From: Prosopocoilus inquinatus
Taxonomy: Eukaryota; Arthropoda; Insecta; Coleoptera; Lucanidae
Length of the DNA: 64,000 nucleotides
Reading direction: 5' to 3'
Assembly (NCBI GenBank): GCA_036172665.1
Contig: CM069870.1
Span: 58,094,212 to 58,158,211 of the forward strand
The notes beneath the pieces were generated by a model. It was not told where the DNA came from and did no database searches. It saw only the letters and a program-made list of their open reading frames with translations. Within the stretch, counting starts at the first letter, position 1; each line of letters opens with the position of its first letter. Both the position numbers and the translations under genes were made by a program. Shown piece after piece: positions 18,036 through 30,247 of the stretch.

Positions 18036-18900
18036 TACGAGGGTCGATCAATAAGTACCCGTGTTTGAAGACAGGTGGCGCTGCTAAGGGAAGTTGGCAT
18101 TACCGTCGTATACTGCCATCTGTCAAACGTTGCCATACTAAATTTCAGACTGATTTATAGGTTAGTTTCCATTTGGCAGCCAGTTTTATCAAACGTGTTT
18201 CGTGTTTCTCGATAAAATGAAAAAAGAGCAATATCGATCCGTTATTCGCTTTTTATTTTTGGATGGAAAAACATGCGAAGAAATAAAAGTGAAGTTGGAT
18301 GCTATCCATGGGGACCCTTCACCATCTATGACAACCGTGAGATATTGGTTTAACGCATTTAAACGTCGTCGTACGTCTGTTTTTGATGAGGAGCGGCCAG
18401 GTCGCCCGGCAGACGTGGTTACCGAGGAAATTGTTGAAAAGGTCCACGATATGATTCTTGCTGATCGCCGAACTAAAGTGCGCGAAGTAGCAGAGGCCGT
18501 AGGGGTGTCGTACGGAACGGCAATCAATATCTTACATGATAAGCTATCTGTGAAAAAGGTGTCGGCCCGATGGGTGCCGCGATTGCTGACGGTGGACAAC
18601 AAGCGGATACGGCTGTCAATGTCGAAGCAGTGTTTGGACCTCTTTAAGCGAAATTCGCAGGAGTTTTTGCGTCGAGTCGTCACCGTTGATGAAACCTGGA
18701 TACATTATTATACGCCAGAGACCAAGCGACAATCAAAACAATGGATTTTTCCTGGTGAATCTGCCCCGAAGAAGGCAAAGTCGGTCCCATCAGCCGGAAA
18801 GGTCATGGCCACGATTTTTTGGGATTCGATGGGAGTAATCCTCATGGACTTTCTGGAGAAAGGAAGAACGATCACGGGGCAGTACTACAGTGAATTATTG
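18036..18900 (+). mobile_element. 3'-truncated mariner
   Basis: A 5' end with terminal repeat CGAGGGTCGATCAATAAGTA follows a TA at 18036. It leads into a clean mariner transposase frame. Similarity ends abruptly near 18898 and the matching 3' terminal repeat was not found. The junction sequence GTTATAGTACTGTCTCGATT is followed by the mirrored ACTATAAC 30 bases on. This suggests a rearrangement or another insertion at the break. Confidence 0.85.
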
Positions 18901-18927
18901 GTTATAGTACTGTCTCGATTAGTATGA
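18217..18927 (+). pseudogene. mariner transposase, C-terminally truncated
   Basis: Cut-and-paste DDD transposase of the mariner family. The ATG at 18217 starts at the usual place, about 180 bp inside the terminal repeat. Two helix-turn-helix units are evident: EQYRSVIRFLFLDGKTCEEI (residues 4-23), and VREVAEAVGVSYGTAINILH near residue 95. A GRP hinge (RPGRPADVV) lies between them. LSVKKVSARWVPRLL follows. The first catalytic Asp is D158 in TVDETWIHYY. AGKVMATIFWDSMGVILMDF then leads to GQYYSELL at about residue 230. The second and third catalytic Asp regions (HDNAPAH-like and SPDLAPSD-like) are absent: the frame runs into foreign sequence and stops at 236 residues, against about 345 for a full protein. 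The frame is otherwise free of stops, so the truncation is fairly recent. It could not be catalytic but might still bind mariner ends. Confidence 0.9.
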
Positions 18928-22595: not shown

Positions 22596-23265
22596 ACAAA
22601 GAAAAGTTTTTGGACTAAAAAAAATTTATTTTTGATGAATCCAAGCCCGCAAAATAACTATTTACTGCTGCGATTACCTCGAAATTGGACGAATATCTCT
22701 TACCACCGCGTCATTTTCAGATTTGAAAACAGATGATACAATCGCTGGGTGCTAAATCTGGGAAGTATGGTGAATGAGACACTAATTCGAATCCCAATTC
22801 ATTAACTTTGACCATTGCAACTGCAGACTTGTGGGCAGGTGCATTACTCTGATGGAAAAGCTCTTTCTTCTTTGCCGAATGAGGCCGTTTCTCTTTGATT
22901 CTGTCACTCAATTGTTGCAACAAATTGGCATAATGGTCACCATTTTTTGGTTTTCCCCTTTCTAAATAGTCAACAAGGATGGTACCACGATGATTCCAAA
23001 ACATCGTTGTCATAACTTTTTTTGCTGGTGCTTTGTCAGCAGAAAAGCTTCTTATCTTCTTTAGTGGCGGAGACCCTTTGCATGTTCATTGTTTGGACTG
23101 CGTTTTTGTTTCGGAAGTGTAATGGTAAAAGTTCGCCAGACACACTTAAACGATTCAATTTTTTTACCTCCAGTATGAATAACCAGGGCATCCAACGCGC
23201 CGTGTATTTTTTCATTAATAAAGGATGGTTCTACAGAATGATACCGCGGAATTCGCGGCATCTCT
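22596..23265 (-). pseudogene. mariner transposase remnant, 5'-truncated
   Basis: This holds the middle and C-terminal part of a mariner transposase, read leftward. TARWMPWL lies near 23215. YHYTSETKTQSKQ follows (about 23120) and hits an in-frame stop where mariners have Trp. Then come KGSPPLKKIRSFSAD and the open stretch 23013-22717 with TTMFWNHRGTILVDYLERGK. The second catalytic Asp is replaced by Ser in HQSNAPAHKS; the third is kept in FPDLAPSD. A decayed tail to about 22600 still shows the C-terminal AVNSYFAGL-like region in another frame. The N-terminal third and both terminal repeats were not found. Inactive. Confidence 0.88.
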
Positions 23266-23763: not shown

Positions 23764-23767
23764 CTAT

Positions 23768-24093
23768 TGTGGCGAGCCAACCTGACTCAGCGAAAGGCGT
23801 CAAGAAGTCGGTCCGCTTGATGTGTCATCGGCCGTCACGCGTTCGGGGCCTGTATCGAGCAAACTAGAATCTTCCAGCATCGAGACTTCCAGACGCCTGC
23901 AGTAGATATAAAATCGCCCGGAGTTGACTCACCAGGCAGTCGAATTCGAACAGCGATAGTCGAAGTTAGATTTTAGTGTGAAAATAAATTGTTAGAAATA
24001 AATTAGTTTTTAAGCTTTATTAAATTACGGTTAAGTTTGTATCGAGTGTTTTATTCGTTTAAATAAATAAACTCAAACCCTAGAAACGTAACA
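23768..24093 (+). repeat. 5' LTR with core promoter
   Basis: Begins TGTGGCGAGCC and ends GAAACGTAACA. A TATA box (TATAAAAT, 23907-23914) lies 31 bases upstream of an arthropod initiator-like GCAGTCG with its A at 23938. This marks the likely start of the genomic RNA and the U3/R border. AATAAA polyadenylation signals follow at about 23983 and 23997. Apparently identical to 29918-30243. Confidence 0.96.
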
Positions 24094-24094
24094 G

Positions 24095-24112
24095 TGGTGT
24101 CGGTGTGCGGGT
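24095..24112 (+). other. primer-binding site
   Basis: TGGTGTCGGTGTGCGGG starts one base after the 5' LTR, where a tRNA 3' end should anneal. The first seven bases TGGTGTC fit a tRNA ending in GACACCA, as many tRNA-Leu do. The rest is not a perfect match to any tRNA I can recall, so the primer identity is tentative. Confidence 0.6.
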
Positions 24113-24190
24113 TTGTGCAAATAAATAAACAATTTAAAGTAAATTAAATTTAATCAGATTATTAAATAAGTACAGTATCGAAAAAAAACA

Positions 24191-25675
24191 ATGGCTACGA
24201 GAAAAGTGTTGTTGAAAGACTTAAAAGTGGCCGAATTAAAAACCGAATTGGAAGAACGAGAGTTAGAAACCTGTGGTTTGAAAGGCGCACTTCAACAGCG
24301 TCTCCGATCCGATTTGTTGACAGCTGGTGAAGATCCAGAGACGTTCCTTTTCGAAATTTCGTGTGGTCCCGTCGATTTTAATAAAATCTTGAAGGATGAA
24401 TTTCGAGAACAATCCAGAAATTTGGACGAGAAGTTTCAAGAACAGTCTGGAAATTTAGAGAAGAAACTTCTAGAACAATCTGGAAATTTCAAGGACGAAC
24501 TTCGAGAACAATCCAGAAATTTGGACGAGAAGTTTCTAGAACAATCTGGAAATTTCAAGGACGAACTTCGAGAACAATCCAGAAATTTGGACGAGAAGCT
24601 TCAAGAACAATCCAGAAATTTAGAGGAGAAGCTTCTAGAACAATCTGGAAATTTCGACAAATTACAAAATAAATTGTTGGAACAATCTAGAGACTTAGAC
24701 GAGAAATTTCGAGAGCAATCCAGAAATTTCGACGAGAAATTTCTAGAAGAAACAAGGAACTTGCAAGAAAATGTGGAAGAAATCATATTCCAGCAGGATA
24801 ATAAAATCAAAAATCTGGAACGAATCATGGCGGGGTTGCGAGTGTTCGGGGATCAGCCACCAGTAGAAGTACTAGAAAAGAATGAAACCCGAATTGTGGA
24901 AGGACCAGCAGAAAATTCTAAACTGAAGATAAAACCACCAACGTTCGATGGAAAGTCTTCTTGGCCCAACTACTTCAAACAGTTCGAAGCAGCAGCAAAG
25001 GCGAACAGATGGACGGCCAGCGAAAAAGCCACTTCGTTAATTGTGGCCTTGAGAGGGGACGCTATCGATGTGCTACAGACGATGCCGCCAGAGGAACAAG
25101 AAGACTTCGACAAGCTGGTGAATAGGATGGAAATGCGTTACGGACAGGCCCATCTGACCGAGGTATACCATGCGCAGTTGAGGAATCGCTGTCAGAAATC
25201 CGGAGAAACTCTTCAGGAATTCGAAGCAGACGTTGCGCGTCTGGCCCAGTTGGCATATCCCATAGCTCCTGTTGAATTCCTCAAATGTTTGACGGTGCAG
25301 ACCTTCATAGATGGAATCCGTGACCCAGACAACCAGCAGGCATTGAGAATGACCCATCCGAAGACGTCCAAGAACGCATTGGCTTATGCCTTGGAATTTG
25401 AAGCGGCGAGACGAGTCTCAAGAGGGCATGTCAAGGTGCGAGCGGCTATGGACTTCCAAGAGGAAGAAGAGGAAGAATCCGCTAACGCCAAGGTGGGATC
25501 TGCTATAAAGGAGCGACCCAGGGAGTATACCACCGTCGAGGATGTTCGCCGCATTGTGGAACAGGTCTTCAAACAGAAGAAGCCGCTGGTTTGTTGGAAT
25601 TGCCAGGAGGAAGGACATGTTCGCAGGCGATGTCCGAAGCCCAGACAGGATCCAAGGAAGCCACAGTTAAACTAA
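24191..25675 (+). CDS. gag: Gag with SAP-like domain, coiled-coil repeats and CCHC knuckle
   Basis: Structural protein that assembles the retrotransposon particle and packages its RNA. The 494-residue frame starts at an ATG in good context (AAAACAATGG). Residues 8-42 (LKVAELKTELEERELETCGL onward) form a SAP-like helix-extended-helix, a fold usually binding AT-rich DNA. Residues 73-194 are about eleven 11-residue repeats of the type EQSRNLDEKFL or EQSGNFKDELR, encoded by 33-bp tandem DNA repeats, and should form a long coiled coil. Residues about 245-420 are a retrotransposon capsid region (PPTFDGKSSWPNYFKQFE, LQEFEADVARLAQLAYP). A CCHC zinc knuckle follows at C468, C471, H476 and C481. The frame ends at TAA 25673-25675, directly after a slippery heptamer. 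SAP and repeats together make this Gag longer than simple gypsy Gags. Confidence 0.95.
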   Translation: MATRKVLLKDLKVAELKTELEERELETCGLKGALQQRLRSDLLTAGEDPETFLFEISCGPVDFNKILKDEFREQSRNLDEKFQEQSGNLEKKLLEQSGNFKDELREQSRNLDEKFLEQSGNFKDELREQSRNLDEKLQEQSRNLEEKLLEQSGNFDKLQNKLLEQSRDLDEKFREQSRNFDEKFLEETRNLQENVEEIIFQQDNKIKNLERIMAGLRVFGDQPPVEVLEKNETRIVEGPAENSKLKIKPPTFDGKSSWPNYFKQFEAAAKANRWTASEKATSLIVALRGDAIDVLQTMPPEEQEDFDKLVNRMEMRYGQAHLTEVYHAQLRNRCQKSGETLQEFEADVARLAQLAYPIAPVEFLKCLTVQTFIDGIRDPDNQQALRMTHPKTSKNALAYALEFEAARRVSRGHVKVRAAMDFQEEEEEESANAKVGSAIKERPREYTTVEDVRRIVEQVFKQKKPLVCWNCQEEGHVRRRCPKPRQDPRKPQLN

Positions 25676-25723
25676 GCCGGGTCGGTGCAGAGGGGCAAAC
25701 GTCGACCCGTATTCAAAGGCCCC
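25666..25723 (+). promoter_or_regulatory. candidate -1 ribosomal frameshift signal with pseudoknot
   Basis: The heptamer G TTA AAC (25666-25672), read in the gag frame, sits immediately before the gag stop TAA. Five bases later a 10-bp stem begins. Its arms are 25678-25687 and 25700-25709, with eight Watson-Crick pairs and two G-U pairs. Its loop contains GGGGC (25692-25696), which can pair with GCCCC at 25719-25723. This makes an H-type pseudoknot with loops of 4, 3 and 9 bases. Pol is in the -1 frame relative to gag, and continuing from base 25672 enters it without a stop. G UUA AAC is an established slippery sequence (used by equine arteritis virus). The function here is inferred from the layout. 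Confidence 0.8.
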
Positions 25724-26793
25724 CAAAGACGAAAGCCAACCAAGTAATATCCCTACGGCAGTTAACCAGCAGTATCTTCGTGGATGTTACCATTGATGAC
25801 ATTCCTCACACCATGTTGTTGGATACGGGTGCGACGAAGACCATCCTAAGACCCGACGTCATTAAGTCATCTGGACGCACCGAGCCGACCAAGTGGAGAC
25901 TGAAAACTGCAACTGGAACATCAGCAACTGTCCACGGTGAAGTAGAGGTTATCATCACCATTGGTTCAACTCCAATAAAACACCGTGCACTGGTGGCAGA
26001 TATAGAGGACGAGGCAATTTTGGGCATGGACGTCATGTGTGCCCACGGGTTCCAATTGGACTTAAAGCGTGGCGTAATGGCGGTCAATAATGAGGAGTTG
26101 GTTCTTCATCAACGAGGGGACGTGGCCGCTCGAGTAGTCCTCGCTGAAGACGTTGTATTACCCAGCAGGACTGAGGTTATCGTCGACGCAAAACTGGACG
26201 GTGTTTTTCAAGATGGGCAAGTCATTATGGTTGAACCTAATACTGATGATCAAAGGATTGGAAGAGGAGTCCTCGTTGGGAAAATGTTGTTGACGGCGAA
26301 GAAGGAAGTACCTGTCCGCCTGATGAACGTCAATTGTTTCTCTGTCAATATCAAGAAAGGAACAATCTTGGGAAGCTGCACCATGGTGTCCTCCATCTCC
26401 CGGCAACTTGAAACAAACGTGCCAGAAGCGAAAGTCCCAAAGAAATTATGGGAAATGGTTATGTCAACAGCCCAGGAATTGACTCCAGACCAGAAGACAA
26501 AAGCAAAGAATCTGATCGGCCGCTATCAAGATGTATTTGAGGTAGAAAATGGATCCAAGGGAAGAACTGATGTCGTGAAACACAAAATAGAGACTGGAGA
26601 AGAAAGACCTATCCGTCAAGCCCCAAGGCGATTACCGTTGGCGAAGCGTGAGGAAGCGGAACGCATTATTCGCGAGATGGAAAAGGATAATGTAATAGAA
26701 CCATCAAGCAGCCCGTGGGCGTCACCAGTAGTGCTTGTGAAGAAGAAGGATGGGTCCACCAGGTTTCTGTGTAGACTACCGGTTACTCAATAA
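25672..26793 (+). CDS. pol: Pol N-terminal part: protease and start of reverse transcriptase
   Basis: This is the first part of Pol, expressed as a Gag-Pol fusion by the -1 shift. No own ATG is needed; the open frame extends upstream to at least 25591. The retroviral-type aspartic protease has VDVTIDDIPHTMLLDTGATK, with the catalytic DTGA at about 25822-25833. The AILGMDVM motif lies about 65 residues further on. A linker follows, then the RT N-terminus at about 26540-26760 (KHKIETGEERPIRQAPRRLP, PSSSPWASPVVLVKKKDGS). The frame is lost at 26764-26766, in the conserved fingers block, because one T too many is present. Translation then stops at 26793. RT continues in the frame of the next entry. 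Confidence 0.92.
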   Translation, partial: LSRVGAEGQTSTRIQRPPKTKANQVISLRQLTSSIFVDVTIDDIPHTMLLDTGATKTILRPDVIKSSGRTEPTKWRLKTATGTSATVHGEVEVIITIGSTPIKHRALVADIEDEAILGMDVMCAHGFQLDLKRGVMAVNNEELVLHQRGDVAARVVLAEDVVLPSRTEVIVDAKLDGVFQDGQVIMVEPNTDDQRIGRGVLVGKMLLTAKKEVPVRLMNVNCFSVNIKKGTILGSCTMVSSISRQLETNVPEAKVPKKLWEMVMSTAQELTPDQKTKAKNLIGRYQDVFEVENGSKGRTDVVKHKIETGEERPIRQAPRRLPLAKREEAERIIREMEKDNVIEPSSSPWASPVVLVKKKDGSTRFLCRLPVTQ

Positions 26794-29700
26794 TGTCACC
26801 AAGAAGGACAGCTATCCCTTGCCCCGGATTGATGATACCCTGGACACCCTGGCCGGCTCAAAGATCTTCTCAACTTTGGACTTAAAGAGTGGATATTGGC
26901 AAGTGGAGCTGGCGCCCGAAGATCGAGAAAAGACGGCGTTTTCCATTGGTATGGGTCTGTGGCAGTTCACAGTGATGCCATTCGGGTTATGTAATGCCCC
27001 AGCGACATTCGAGAGGTTAATGGAGACGGTTCTGAAAGGTCTGTCCTGGACAACGTGCATGGTGTACCTTGACGACATAATTGTCGTGGGAAAGACGTTC
27101 GACGACCACCTAAGGAACCTGGAAGGAGTGTTCCAGCGGCTTCGCGGAGCTGGACTAAAGCTTAGCCTCAAGAAGTGTCACCTGTTCCAGAAGGAAGTGA
27201 ATTACCTGGGGCACATTGTTAATGGAAACGGAATCGCCGTGGACCCTGTGAAGATTCAGGTGGTGAAAGACTGGCCAACTCCCACAAATAAACACCAAAT
27301 AAGGAGTTTCCTTGGCCTGTGCACTTACTATCGGCGCTACGTTCCTGGATTTGCAGACATTGCTAAGCCGTTAACAAAACTCACTGAAGAAGGTCGTCCA
27401 TTTGAATGGGACCAACAGTGTCAAATTGGCTTTGAACAACTAAAGCAGTACTTGGTTAGTGCTCCTATTCTGAGTTATCTTCTCCCGGAAGGCAAGTTCG
27501 TCGTGGACACAGATGCTAGCAACGTTGGGATTGGTGGCGTACTCTCCCAGATACAAGAGGGGCAAGAGAAGGTGATCGGCTACTTCAGTAAAGTCCTATC
27601 AAAGCCGGAACGAAACTATTGCGTCACAAGAAGGGAATTGCTAGCCGTCGTAAAAACGATAGAACACTTCTACAAGTACTTGTATGGTAGACGCTTCCTG
27701 CTGAGGACCGACCACGCCGCTCTAAAATGGCTTCTCCGTTTCAAGAACCCAGAAGGGCAAGTTGCACGATGGATCGAACGACTTCAGGAGTACGATTTTG
27801 AAATTCAGCATCGGGCAGGAACTAGCCATCGAAATGCCGATGCTCTGTCGAGAAGACCCTGTGCTGAAGACTGTAAGCACTGTAGTCGTTTGGACGAGAA
27901 AATAGCCACGACTGCGAGGACAGCCATTGTTGATGACAAATGGCAAGGCGAAGAACTGCGAAGAGACCAGGAAAACGACCCGGATTTGAAATTAGTGCTA
28001 GAATGGAAAAGCAGGGACGCGAGGCCTACCTGGGAAGAGGTAGCACCATGTGCACCGTCCGTAAAATCATACTGGGCGCAGTGGGACTCCATAGTGTTGG
28101 ATCGTGGTCTTCTGAGACGAAGCATAGAGAATCAGGAAGGCATGGAACAGAAGACACAGTTACTGATCCCCAAGAATAGGGTGCCAGAAGTTCTGAGGGA
28201 ACTTCACGATGGAACTTCGGGAGGGCATCTGGGAGTTAAGAAGACTATGGAGAAGGTGGGCGAAAGATTTTACTGGGTGAACTGCAAGGAAGACGTGAAG
28301 GATTGGTGCAGAAAGTGTGCAGTCTGCGCAGCCAGTAACGGCCCCCACAGGCGGGGTAAGGCTCCCATGAGACAGTACAACGTTGGAAGTCCTTTTGAGA
28401 GAGTTGCCATCGATGTAGCCGGCCCGTTTCCAGAAACGAATGGTGGAAACAAGTACATCGTCGTGGTAATGGACTACTTTAGCAAGTGGGTTGAAGCTTA
28501 CGCCCTACCTAACCAAGAGGCAGTCACTATTGCGGAAGTCCTTGTCAGGGAATGGATCAGTCGGTATGGTGCACCTATGGAACTGCATTCAGACCAAGGA
28601 AGGAACTTTGAATCGGCCTTGTTCAAGAACGTGTGTACTCTGCTCGGCGTACGAAAAACTAGAACAACTGCACTCCACCCACAGTCGGACGGAATGGTGG
28701 AAAGGTTCAATAGAACCATCAACCGACATTTGTCCAAGGTCGTTTCCAATCATCAGAGGGACTGGGACACGTACATCCCCCTGTTTCTAATGGCATACCG
28801 CTCATCTGTTCATGAGACAACAGGGGAGACTCCCGCGAAAGTGGTATTCGGGCGAGAGCCGAGACTGCCCTGCGACCTGAAGTTTGGTGTGAAGCCTGGC
28901 GAAGTCTCTGCCGACGAAGATTACGTGAGCAAATTACGCAGGAAAATGGATGATATCCACAACCCAGTGCGTCACAATATACAGACGGCCAGCGATCGGA
29001 TGAAGGAGCACTATGACATCAACGCTCAACACGGGGGATACCAACCTGGAGCACTGGTCTGGCTTTATAACCCCCAAAGACGTCGAGGCCTCTCCCCAAA
29101 ATTACAGACCTCTTGGGAAGGTCCTTACAAAGTGATGAAATGGATCAACGACGTCGTTTACCGCATCAGGAAGGTCCCCCATGGCAAACCCAAAGTAATC
29201 CACTTCAACCGGATAGCCCCTTACCATGGAGAAGCAGATGAAGGGACAGTACAAAGGGCGCAAGTTTCCGAAGTAAACTTCGAAACCTTCATGTCTCAAC
29301 ACGCCGAAGGAAGCAAGGCACGGTTTGGAGTGACCACGGAGAAGCAACAAGATCTCTTTAAAGTGCCACTGGAGTACAGTCTGGCCCACTGCGTAGCAGA
29401 AGACCTGAAAATGTCCAAAGGAATCGCTCAGGTGTTTAAGAAGAAATTTGGCCAAATCGAGGAGCTACGAAGACAGCATCCCGTGGTAGGCAAGAGCTTG
29501 CAGATCATTGATTCGACGGCAGATCGGAGGCGCCACGTGCATTATTTAGTCACTAAGAAGACATCAAGCGGTAAACCTGACTATGTGACTATGTGGAGAG
29601 CCCTATATAGCCTGAGGAGACAGCTAATAGAGAACCATCAGATGAAGTTAGCCATCCCCAAATTGGGCTGCGGATTGGACGGACTAGACTGGAGAGTAAT

Positions 29701-29935
29701 TCGAAGCATGCTGGAAGTCATCTTCCACAGAACGGGAATTGAAGTCCTAGTCTGCAGCCACCACCCACAGGCAACAGTCAGCAACAGCAAAACCGTAGAC
29801 TGTTACTTCTTCCAGGCGGGAAGTTGCAAGAATGGGCCAGCATGTAGATTCCGACACCCTCCTTCAAGACTATCACCAGGAACATTTCGAGACGAAACGT
29901 TTCTAAGAAGGGGGCAGTGTGGCGAGCCAACCTGA
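26750..29935 (+). CDS. pol: Pol C-terminal part: RT, RNase H, integrase, macro domain, CCCH finger
   Basis: The 1061-residue frame continues Pol after the indel; residue numbers count from its chance ATG. RT: LDLKSGYWQVEL, MPFGLCNAPATFERL and catalytic YLDD (106-109). RNase H: DTDAS with D253 and D255, RRELLAVV and TDHAAL. Integrase: zinc-binding H486, H493, C523 and C526, then the D,D35E triad D555 (AIDVAGPFP), D615 (HSDQGRNF) and E651 (VERFNR). GPY/F-type module near 785-815 (SWEGPYKVMK). Residues about 862-1003 form a macro domain closest to OARD1/TARG1 (LEYSLAHCVAED, KGIAQVFKKKFG, HYLVTKKTSSGKP, IPKLGCGLDGLDW). Its K936 and D977 match human OARD1 Lys84 and Asp125. A C-x7-C-x5-C-x3-H zinc finger follows (C1018, C1026, C1032, H1036). 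The frame ends 18 bases inside the 3' LTR, so the polypurine tract is coding. Confidence 0.95.
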   Translation: MGPPGFCVDYRLLNNVTKKDSYPLPRIDDTLDTLAGSKIFSTLDLKSGYWQVELAPEDREKTAFSIGMGLWQFTVMPFGLCNAPATFERLMETVLKGLSWTTCMVYLDDIIVVGKTFDDHLRNLEGVFQRLRGAGLKLSLKKCHLFQKEVNYLGHIVNGNGIAVDPVKIQVVKDWPTPTNKHQIRSFLGLCTYYRRYVPGFADIAKPLTKLTEEGRPFEWDQQCQIGFEQLKQYLVSAPILSYLLPEGKFVVDTDASNVGIGGVLSQIQEGQEKVIGYFSKVLSKPERNYCVTRRELLAVVKTIEHFYKYLYGRRFLLRTDHAALKWLLRFKNPEGQVARWIERLQEYDFEIQHRAGTSHRNADALSRRPCAEDCKHCSRLDEKIATTARTAIVDDKWQGEELRRDQENDPDLKLVLEWKSRDARPTWEEVAPCAPSVKSYWAQWDSIVLDRGLLRRSIENQEGMEQKTQLLIPKNRVPEVLRELHDGTSGGHLGVKKTMEKVGERFYWVNCKEDVKDWCRKCAVCAASNGPHRRGKAPMRQYNVGSPFERVAIDVAGPFPETNGGNKYIVVVMDYFSKWVEAYALPNQEAVTIAEVLVREWISRYGAPMELHSDQGRNFESALFKNVCTLLGVRKTRTTALHPQSDGMVERFNRTINRHLSKVVSNHQRDWDTYIPLFLMAYRSSVHETTGETPAKVVFGREPRLPCDLKFGVKPGEVSADEDYVSKLRRKMDDIHNPVRHNIQTASDRMKEHYDINAQHGGYQPGALVWLYNPQRRRGLSPKLQTSWEGPYKVMKWINDVVYRIRKVPHGKPKVIHFNRIAPYHGEADEGTVQRAQVSEVNFETFMSQHAEGSKARFGVTTEKQQDLFKVPLEYSLAHCVAEDLKMSKGIAQVFKKKFGQIEELRRQHPVVGKSLQIIDSTADRRRHVHYLVTKKTSSGKPDYVTMWRALYSLRRQLIENHQMKLAIPKLGCGLDGLDWRVIRSMLEVIFHRTGIEVLVCSHHPQATVSNSKTVDCYFFQAGSCKNGPACRFRHPPSRLSPGTFRDETFLRRGQCGEPT
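29333..29758 (+). other. macro domain of OARD1/TARG1 type within Pol
   Basis: This is the part of the Pol frame that encodes the ADP-ribose-binding macro fold. Blocks diagnostic of the OARD1/ALC1-like subclass appear in order. The DLFKVPLEYSLAHCVAED start is followed by KMSKGIAQVFKKKFG, the substrate loop. RRRHVHYLVTKKTSSGKPDY carries the catalytic Lys (29555-29557). LAIPKLGCGLDGLDW carries the catalytic Asp (29678-29680). EVLVC is the last strand. No stop or frameshift interrupts it. In known family members this Lys/Asp pair cleaves the ester bond between ADP-ribose and Glu/Asp, or thymidine-linked ADP-ribose. Activity here is inferred. Confidence 0.9.
29801..29857 (+). other. CCCH zinc finger within Pol
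   Basis: The sequence CYFFQAGSCKNGPACRFRH has C-x7-C-x5-C-x3-H spacing, typical of single-stranded-RNA-binding CCCH fingers. It follows the macro domain after a linker of about 15 residues. Confidence 0.85.
29903..29917 (+). other. polypurine tract
   Basis: AAGAAGGGGGCAG directly precedes the 3' LTR, as expected for the plus-strand primer. It is simultaneously codons for the last residues of Pol. Confidence 0.8.
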
Positions 29936-30243
29936 CTCAGCGAAAGGCGTCAAGAAGTCGGTCCGCTTGATGTGTCATCGGCCGTCACGCGTTCGGGGCC
30001 TGTATCGAGCAAACTAGAATCTTCCAGCATCGAGACTTCCAGACGCCTGCAGTAGATATAAAATCGCCCGGAGTTGACTCACCAGGCAGTCGAATTCGAA
30101 CAGCGATAGTCGAAGTTAGATTTTAGTGTGAAAATAAATTGTTAGAAATAAATTAGTTTTTAAGCTTTATTAAATTACGGTTAAGTTTGTATCGAGTGTT
30201 TTATTCGTTTAAATAAATAAACTCAAACCCTAGAAACGTAACA
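29918..30243 (+). repeat. 3' LTR
   Basis: Same 326 bases as 23768-24093 as far as I can read. Offset is exactly 6150 at both ends. The Pol stop codon TGA lies inside its first 18 bases. AATAAA signals at 30133-30138 and 30147-30152 would polyadenylate the transcript. Confidence 0.97.
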
Positions 30244-30247
30244 CTAT

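Follow-up and report, generated by a model that had tools for sequence, protein, structure and literature searches.

In the chromoviruses, which are Ty3/gypsy elements, the integrase is followed by a chromodomain that could bind marked chromatin. Here, we describe a long terminal repeat (LTR) retrotransposon of the Ty3/gypsy type in the beetle Prosopocoilus inquinatus (Lucanidae), which likewise carries an additional domain at the C-terminal end of its integrase; however, this domain is not a chromodomain but a macro domain of the TARG1/OARD1 type with its catalytic residues, and a CCCH zinc finger comes after it. The element lies in a stretch of 64,000 nucleotides (assembly GCA_036172665.1, contig CM069870.1, positions 58,094,212 to 58,158,211), which was analysed as a whole and is called the window below. 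Its nearest precedent is found in fish, where epsilon-like endogenous retroviruses are likewise described as retroelements with a macro domain (PMC4977317, citing Basta 2009). In that account the domain is an additional open reading frame of vertebrate retroviruses, which sets them apart from the beetle element.

Human TARG1/OARD1 (C6orf130) is a free single-domain protein, whereas the domain of the element is the C-terminal part of Pol and precedes the finger. The macro domain of DarG, the antitoxin of DarT, has 21-23% identity to that of the element, and DarG differs in being a bacterial toxin partner. The same fold is also present in other proteins of arthropod viruses (Kadipiro virus VP8, virga-like and negev-like viruses), a likeness known from structure search alone. 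These viral domains are possibly independent captures and, by analogy, would fit a parallel in counter-defence. Besides the thrips virga-like and negev-like viruses, the fold search links the domain of the element to isopod iridescent virus. In the literature searched, which excludes most subscription journals and does not cover Repbase, we found no LTR retrotransposon with a macro domain in Pol; this agrees with an earlier sequence-only reading of the locus, according to which no gypsy clade with such a tail had been described. What we regard as new in this Ty3/gypsy-type element is its integrase-linked enzyme domain.

A macro domain and a CCCH finger at the end of Pol

The open reading frame at 26750-29935 (+) encodes 1061 residues with, in this order, a partial reverse transcriptase (RT), RNase H, integrase, the p58_C/GPY-F module (residues 791-824), the macro domain and the CCCH finger. 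The frame does continue beyond integrase and GPY/F as previously claimed, with a tail of about 237 residues after p58_C rather than the ∼245 given before. The macro domain spans Pol residues 862-1003 (29333..29758, +) and is defined by phmmer, alignment, tree and AlphaFold. The top five phmmer matches among solved structures are all human OARD1/C6orf130, 2eee_A aligning to residues 861-1001 with an E value of 4.2e-29. In the AlphaFold model, the means of 10-residue blocks across the domain range from 85 to 98 pLDDT, and structure comparison places the predicted fold closest to TARG1. The alignment confirms that Lys936 (codon 29555..29557, +) and Asp977 (codon 29678..29680, +) are the counterparts of the catalytic pair Lys84 and Asp125 of human OARD1. 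Behind the macro domain, residues 1018-1036 (29801..29857, +) form the C-x7-C-x5-C-x3-H finger that had been read from the sequence, with ligands C1018, C1026, C1032 and H1036; it passes the zf-CCCH cut-off (27.1 bits for 20.5 required), and phmmer retrieves CPSF30 chains for it (1.7e-8).

Relatives with the same tail

Relatives were sampled by protein searches with the tail or the macro domain as query. The tail (residues 862-1061) matched 208 proteins, and the 120 listed are 52-58% identical to it over 89-100% of its length. Among the matches listed, longhorn beetles account for 97 (Aromia moschata) and 16 (Molorchus minor), the others being five 'lgn' contigs, one 'ena' contig and one record labelled Klebsiella pneumoniae. 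This last record (P0118) is a Pol with the same tail on a 6264-bp contig and probably stems from insect contamination of a bacterial assembly. Searches with the macro domain, one of which gave 4577 matches (120 listed), showed among the matches listed element-type fragments in Brassicogethes aeneus, Pyrocoelia pectoralis, Aquatica leii and Gonioctena quinquepunctata. Taxonomy, checked for four of the six species, covers Cerambycidae, Nitidulidae, Lampyridae and Chrysomelidae, which belong to two infraorders of Polyphaga, and all the relatives with a credible species name so far are beetles. In P0010, P0049, P0109 and P0110, a single frame holds protease, RT and integrase together with this tail. 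The tail is a trait of a lineage with many divergent families in several beetle genera, and the search for other LTR elements with an integrase-macro fusion, which the sequence-only reading had proposed, was successful.

Conservation was followed in two sets. The redundant one has 131 tails (the window copy and 130 proteins passing a script filter, many of them near-identical Aromia copies; P0123 and P0131 fall outside these counts because of the filter). The other has 17 representatives with pairwise identities of 40-75%, except for one pair at 85%, from which P0129, P0132 and P0133 (fewer than 150 residues aligned) were excluded. Position 936 is a lysine in 129/129 lettered rows of the redundant set and position 977 an aspartate in 129/130; both residues are kept in 17/17 representatives and belong to the 35 invariant columns among the 140 of the macro domain. 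The four finger ligands are, in order, retained in 127/129, 129/129, 127/129 and 129/129 rows, and in 16, 17, 17 and 17 of the 17 representatives. None of 20,000 random draws of columns was as conserved as 15 pocket positions, which were chosen after viewing the alignment, so that this comparison is no test. Among eight Pol proteins, integrase has a mean identity of 75%, the macro domain 58%, the finger 54% and the linker ahead of the macro domain, drawn with rough limits, 43%; among six, the value for RT/RNase H is 80%.

Origin of the macro domain

The tree built for this question comprises 57 macro domains, with vertebrate OARD1 rows, no identified insect OARD1 and no DarG; P0123 was restored for it, and P0136 (an odd Mytilus model), L083 and L113 (stops) were excluded. 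The 18 element rows make up one clade (support 99/95), which joins P0128 at 95/93, and the larger set that includes the vertebrate OARD1 rows has a support of 77/88 and is not starred. A single capture from an animal-type OARD1 would be the simplest account of this topology.

That the macro domain came from bacteria or phages was considered and rejected. The scan of viral contigs yielded 160 relatives, of which 80 were kept, and the bacterial scan 48 loci with 29-42% identity; the tree drew on at most 12 viral and at most 11 bacterial loci, 20 such rows being present in it. Eighteen of them (10 viral, 8 bacterial) lie apart from the elements, in one set with P0130, P0134 and P0135. As for the other two, b_L106, a long row, lies at the root, and v_L005 is placed on the OARD1 side as a neighbour of P0127, weakly supported (75/86). 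A separate viral-contig scan, made with the Pol alignment in search of DNA for a selection test, found no DNA of the relatives.

Proposed function and alternative explanations

ADP-ribosylation is already known to meet retroelements, since PARP-1 accumulates on retroelement chromatin of Drosophila, where it binds and silences gypsy and copia (PMC3964218), and since SIRT6 mono-ADP-ribosylates KAP1 and in this way silences L1 (PMC4695847). TARG1 is reported to remove ADP-ribose from Glu/Asp with Lys84 and Asp125 as catalytic residues (PMC5725667, PMC8501950). It is also reported to act on phosphorylated DNA ends, D125A being dead (PMC5725667), and on thymidine, K84A being dead (PMC8501950), and to control PARP1-made DNA ADP-ribose at telomeres (PMC11102865). 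We consider it slightly better than an even bet that a Ty3/gypsy-type lineage captured an animal-type OARD1/TARG1 once onto the integrase C terminus and has retained it in working order as an ADP-ribosyl hydrolase, together with a nucleic-acid-binding CCCH finger. On this reading the macro domain would be enzymatically active. As part of the integrase, the hydrolase would enter the particle and pre-integration complex, where it may strip ADP-ribose added by host transferases from the nucleoprotein of the element (cDNA ends or bases, RNA, acidic protein residues), while the finger might hold it on RNA or single-stranded DNA. Such removal would keep cDNA synthesis or integration from being blocked. 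Linear retrotransposon cDNA ends resemble the DNA breaks modified by PARPs, and an integrase-borne eraser would be located precisely there. A bolder extension, which we regard as tentative and rather unlikely, is that the insect host ADP-ribosylates retrotransposon cDNA or RNA as a genome defence, and that this lineage carries the matching eraser on its integrase as a eukaryotic mobile-element counterpart of DarG reversing DarT.

Several observations weigh against a retained hydrolase acting with its finger. Pfam Macro scores 18.5 bits on the tail alone and 15.1 bits on the whole frame, under the 22-bit cut-off, and Pfam by itself would therefore miss the domain; among the HMM and structure checks suggested beforehand, this one failed, and the OARD1 phmmer matches and the predicted fold were positive. 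In the catalytic loop, G973 is replaced by A or S in 117/129 lettered rows (altered in 6/17 representatives) and C974 by S in 98/129 (1/17). The finger is modelled at low confidence (blocks at 57-69 pLDDT) and does not occur in the firefly fragment P0123. Finally, the distances of integrase and macro domain correlate (r 0.61, with 332 of 20,000 permutations as high), mostly because of one close pair, and r falls to 0.09 (1851/5040) when this pair is removed; RT versus macro domain gives 0.25 (158/720), the control RT versus integrase 0.79 (2/720). As the agreement between integrase and macro distances is not robust without the close pair, it was rejected as support for co-inheritance. Since the correlations with macro distances are weak, it is the physical linkage and the monophyly of the macro domains that speak for a long co-inheritance.

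At residues 973-974, most rows show ASG or a similar triplet replacing GCG with Lys and Asp retained, as in the Aromia proteins P0002 and P0122 (ASG). This loop change perhaps alters the substrate.

Among the alternatives, the domain could serve to counter host PARP-type antiviral proteins by clearing ADP-ribose from Gag or host proteins in the manner of viral macro domains, nucleic acid not being its target. The fold search finds macro domains in arthropod viruses, such as Kadipiro virus VP8 (42% identity) and thrips virga-like viruses, and the reported action of TARG1 on Glu/Asp would suit this role. However, the fusion to integrase and to a finger of the nucleic-acid-binding type, instead of Gag, would put the domain with the cDNA, and the searches made turned up no insect transferase that acts on particles of this kind; we hold this explanation to be rather unlikely. 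More doubtful still is a domain that binds ADP-ribose on chromatin, at breaks or heterochromatin marked by PARP, and guides integration in the way of the chromodomains of chromoviruses. The position at the integrase C terminus is the same as that of those chromodomains, and the accumulation of PARP-1 on Drosophila retroelement chromatin would provide a mark; nevertheless, TARG1 is described as a hydrolase and a pure reader need not retain the catalytic lysine, which is kept in all lettered tails and all representatives. The earlier choice between erasing and reading can accordingly be narrowed: the OARD1-type domain, the catalytic pair and the finger stand, erasing is retained as a plausible role, and passive reading is less supported because of this lysine.

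It is quite improbable that the tail is a structural passenger, kept as an integrase spacer or stabiliser with no catalysis. The variation at residues 973 and 974 would be in line with it, but Lys936 and Asp977 remain invariant although the macro domain differs by ∼42% among the eight Pol proteins. An accidental fusion of a host OARD1 gene to a single copy, one of the cases that the sequence-only reading had named as fatal to its proposal, has a negligible probability: the window holds one copy only, yet the 208 matching proteins, the further beetle genera and the single clade of 18 refute it.

If the favoured hydrolase reading is correct, an integrase-fused de-ADP-ribosylating enzyme has been kept across many divergent families, and the implication would be that retrotransposition in these insects is held back by ADP-ribosylation. 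It would also allow a test of whether foreign or reverse-transcribed nucleic acid receives an ADP-ribose mark in animals, where the natural targets of this modification are still poorly known. A single isolated domain with two removable catalytic residues offers a simple entry point.

Structure of the element and its surroundings

The element is 6476 bp long (23768-30243) and shows the hallmarks of a Ty3/gypsy-type LTR element. Its 5' LTR (23768..24093, +) and 3' LTR (29918..30243, +), both of 326 bp, are 100% identical with TG...CA termini, and CTAT is duplicated at the target site on both flanks (23764..23767 and 30244-30247). Because of these three features, the insertion points to a recent event. 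A presumed primer-binding site starting with TGG, recognised by position and sequence only, lies one base past the LTR (24095..24110, +). The polypurine tract precedes the 3' LTR (29905..29917, +), is in frame and forms part of LRRGQC, a C-terminal motif common to most relatives that translates the tract and the LTR start (29905-29932); the stop codon of Pol is inside the 3' LTR. The window contains no second copy of the tail or the LTR, and tRNA and Rfam scans of it gave no matches.

The Pfam order protease, RT, RNase H and integrase is spread over two open reading frames and fits a Ty3/gypsy LTR retrotransposon; no chromodomain family is among the 17 Pfam matches up to E 1, and the element is thus not classed as a chromovirus. 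Protease (Asp_protease_2, gag-asp_proteas) and the start of RT are encoded at 25591..26793 (+), and the remaining RT, RNase H, integrase and p58_C/GPY-F (RVT_1, RT_RNaseH, Integrase_H2C2, rve, Integrase_p58_C) at 26750..29221 (+). The two frames differ and overlap at 26750-26793, which locates the break in the N-terminal part of RT. Despite its identical LTRs, the window copy is not intact and is a young but damaged insertion.

Gag (24191..25675, +) combines an N-terminal SAP domain (27.4 bits, Pfam cut-off 23.9), 33-nt tandem repeats encoding a charged 11-residue repeat, and a CCHC knuckle (zf-CCHC, 25.7 bits, cut-off 20.8). SAP is a DNA-binding motif that is, to our knowledge, unusual in Gag. 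It (PF02037) is also present in many Aromia relatives among the matches listed. Elsewhere in the window, mariner-type transposase pieces are found at 18166-18927 (+; Transposase_1 74.1 bits, with HTH_48) and 22717-23085 (-; Transposase_1 50.5 bits), together with a reverse transcriptase remnant at 1245-1643 (-; RVT_1 65.3 bits).
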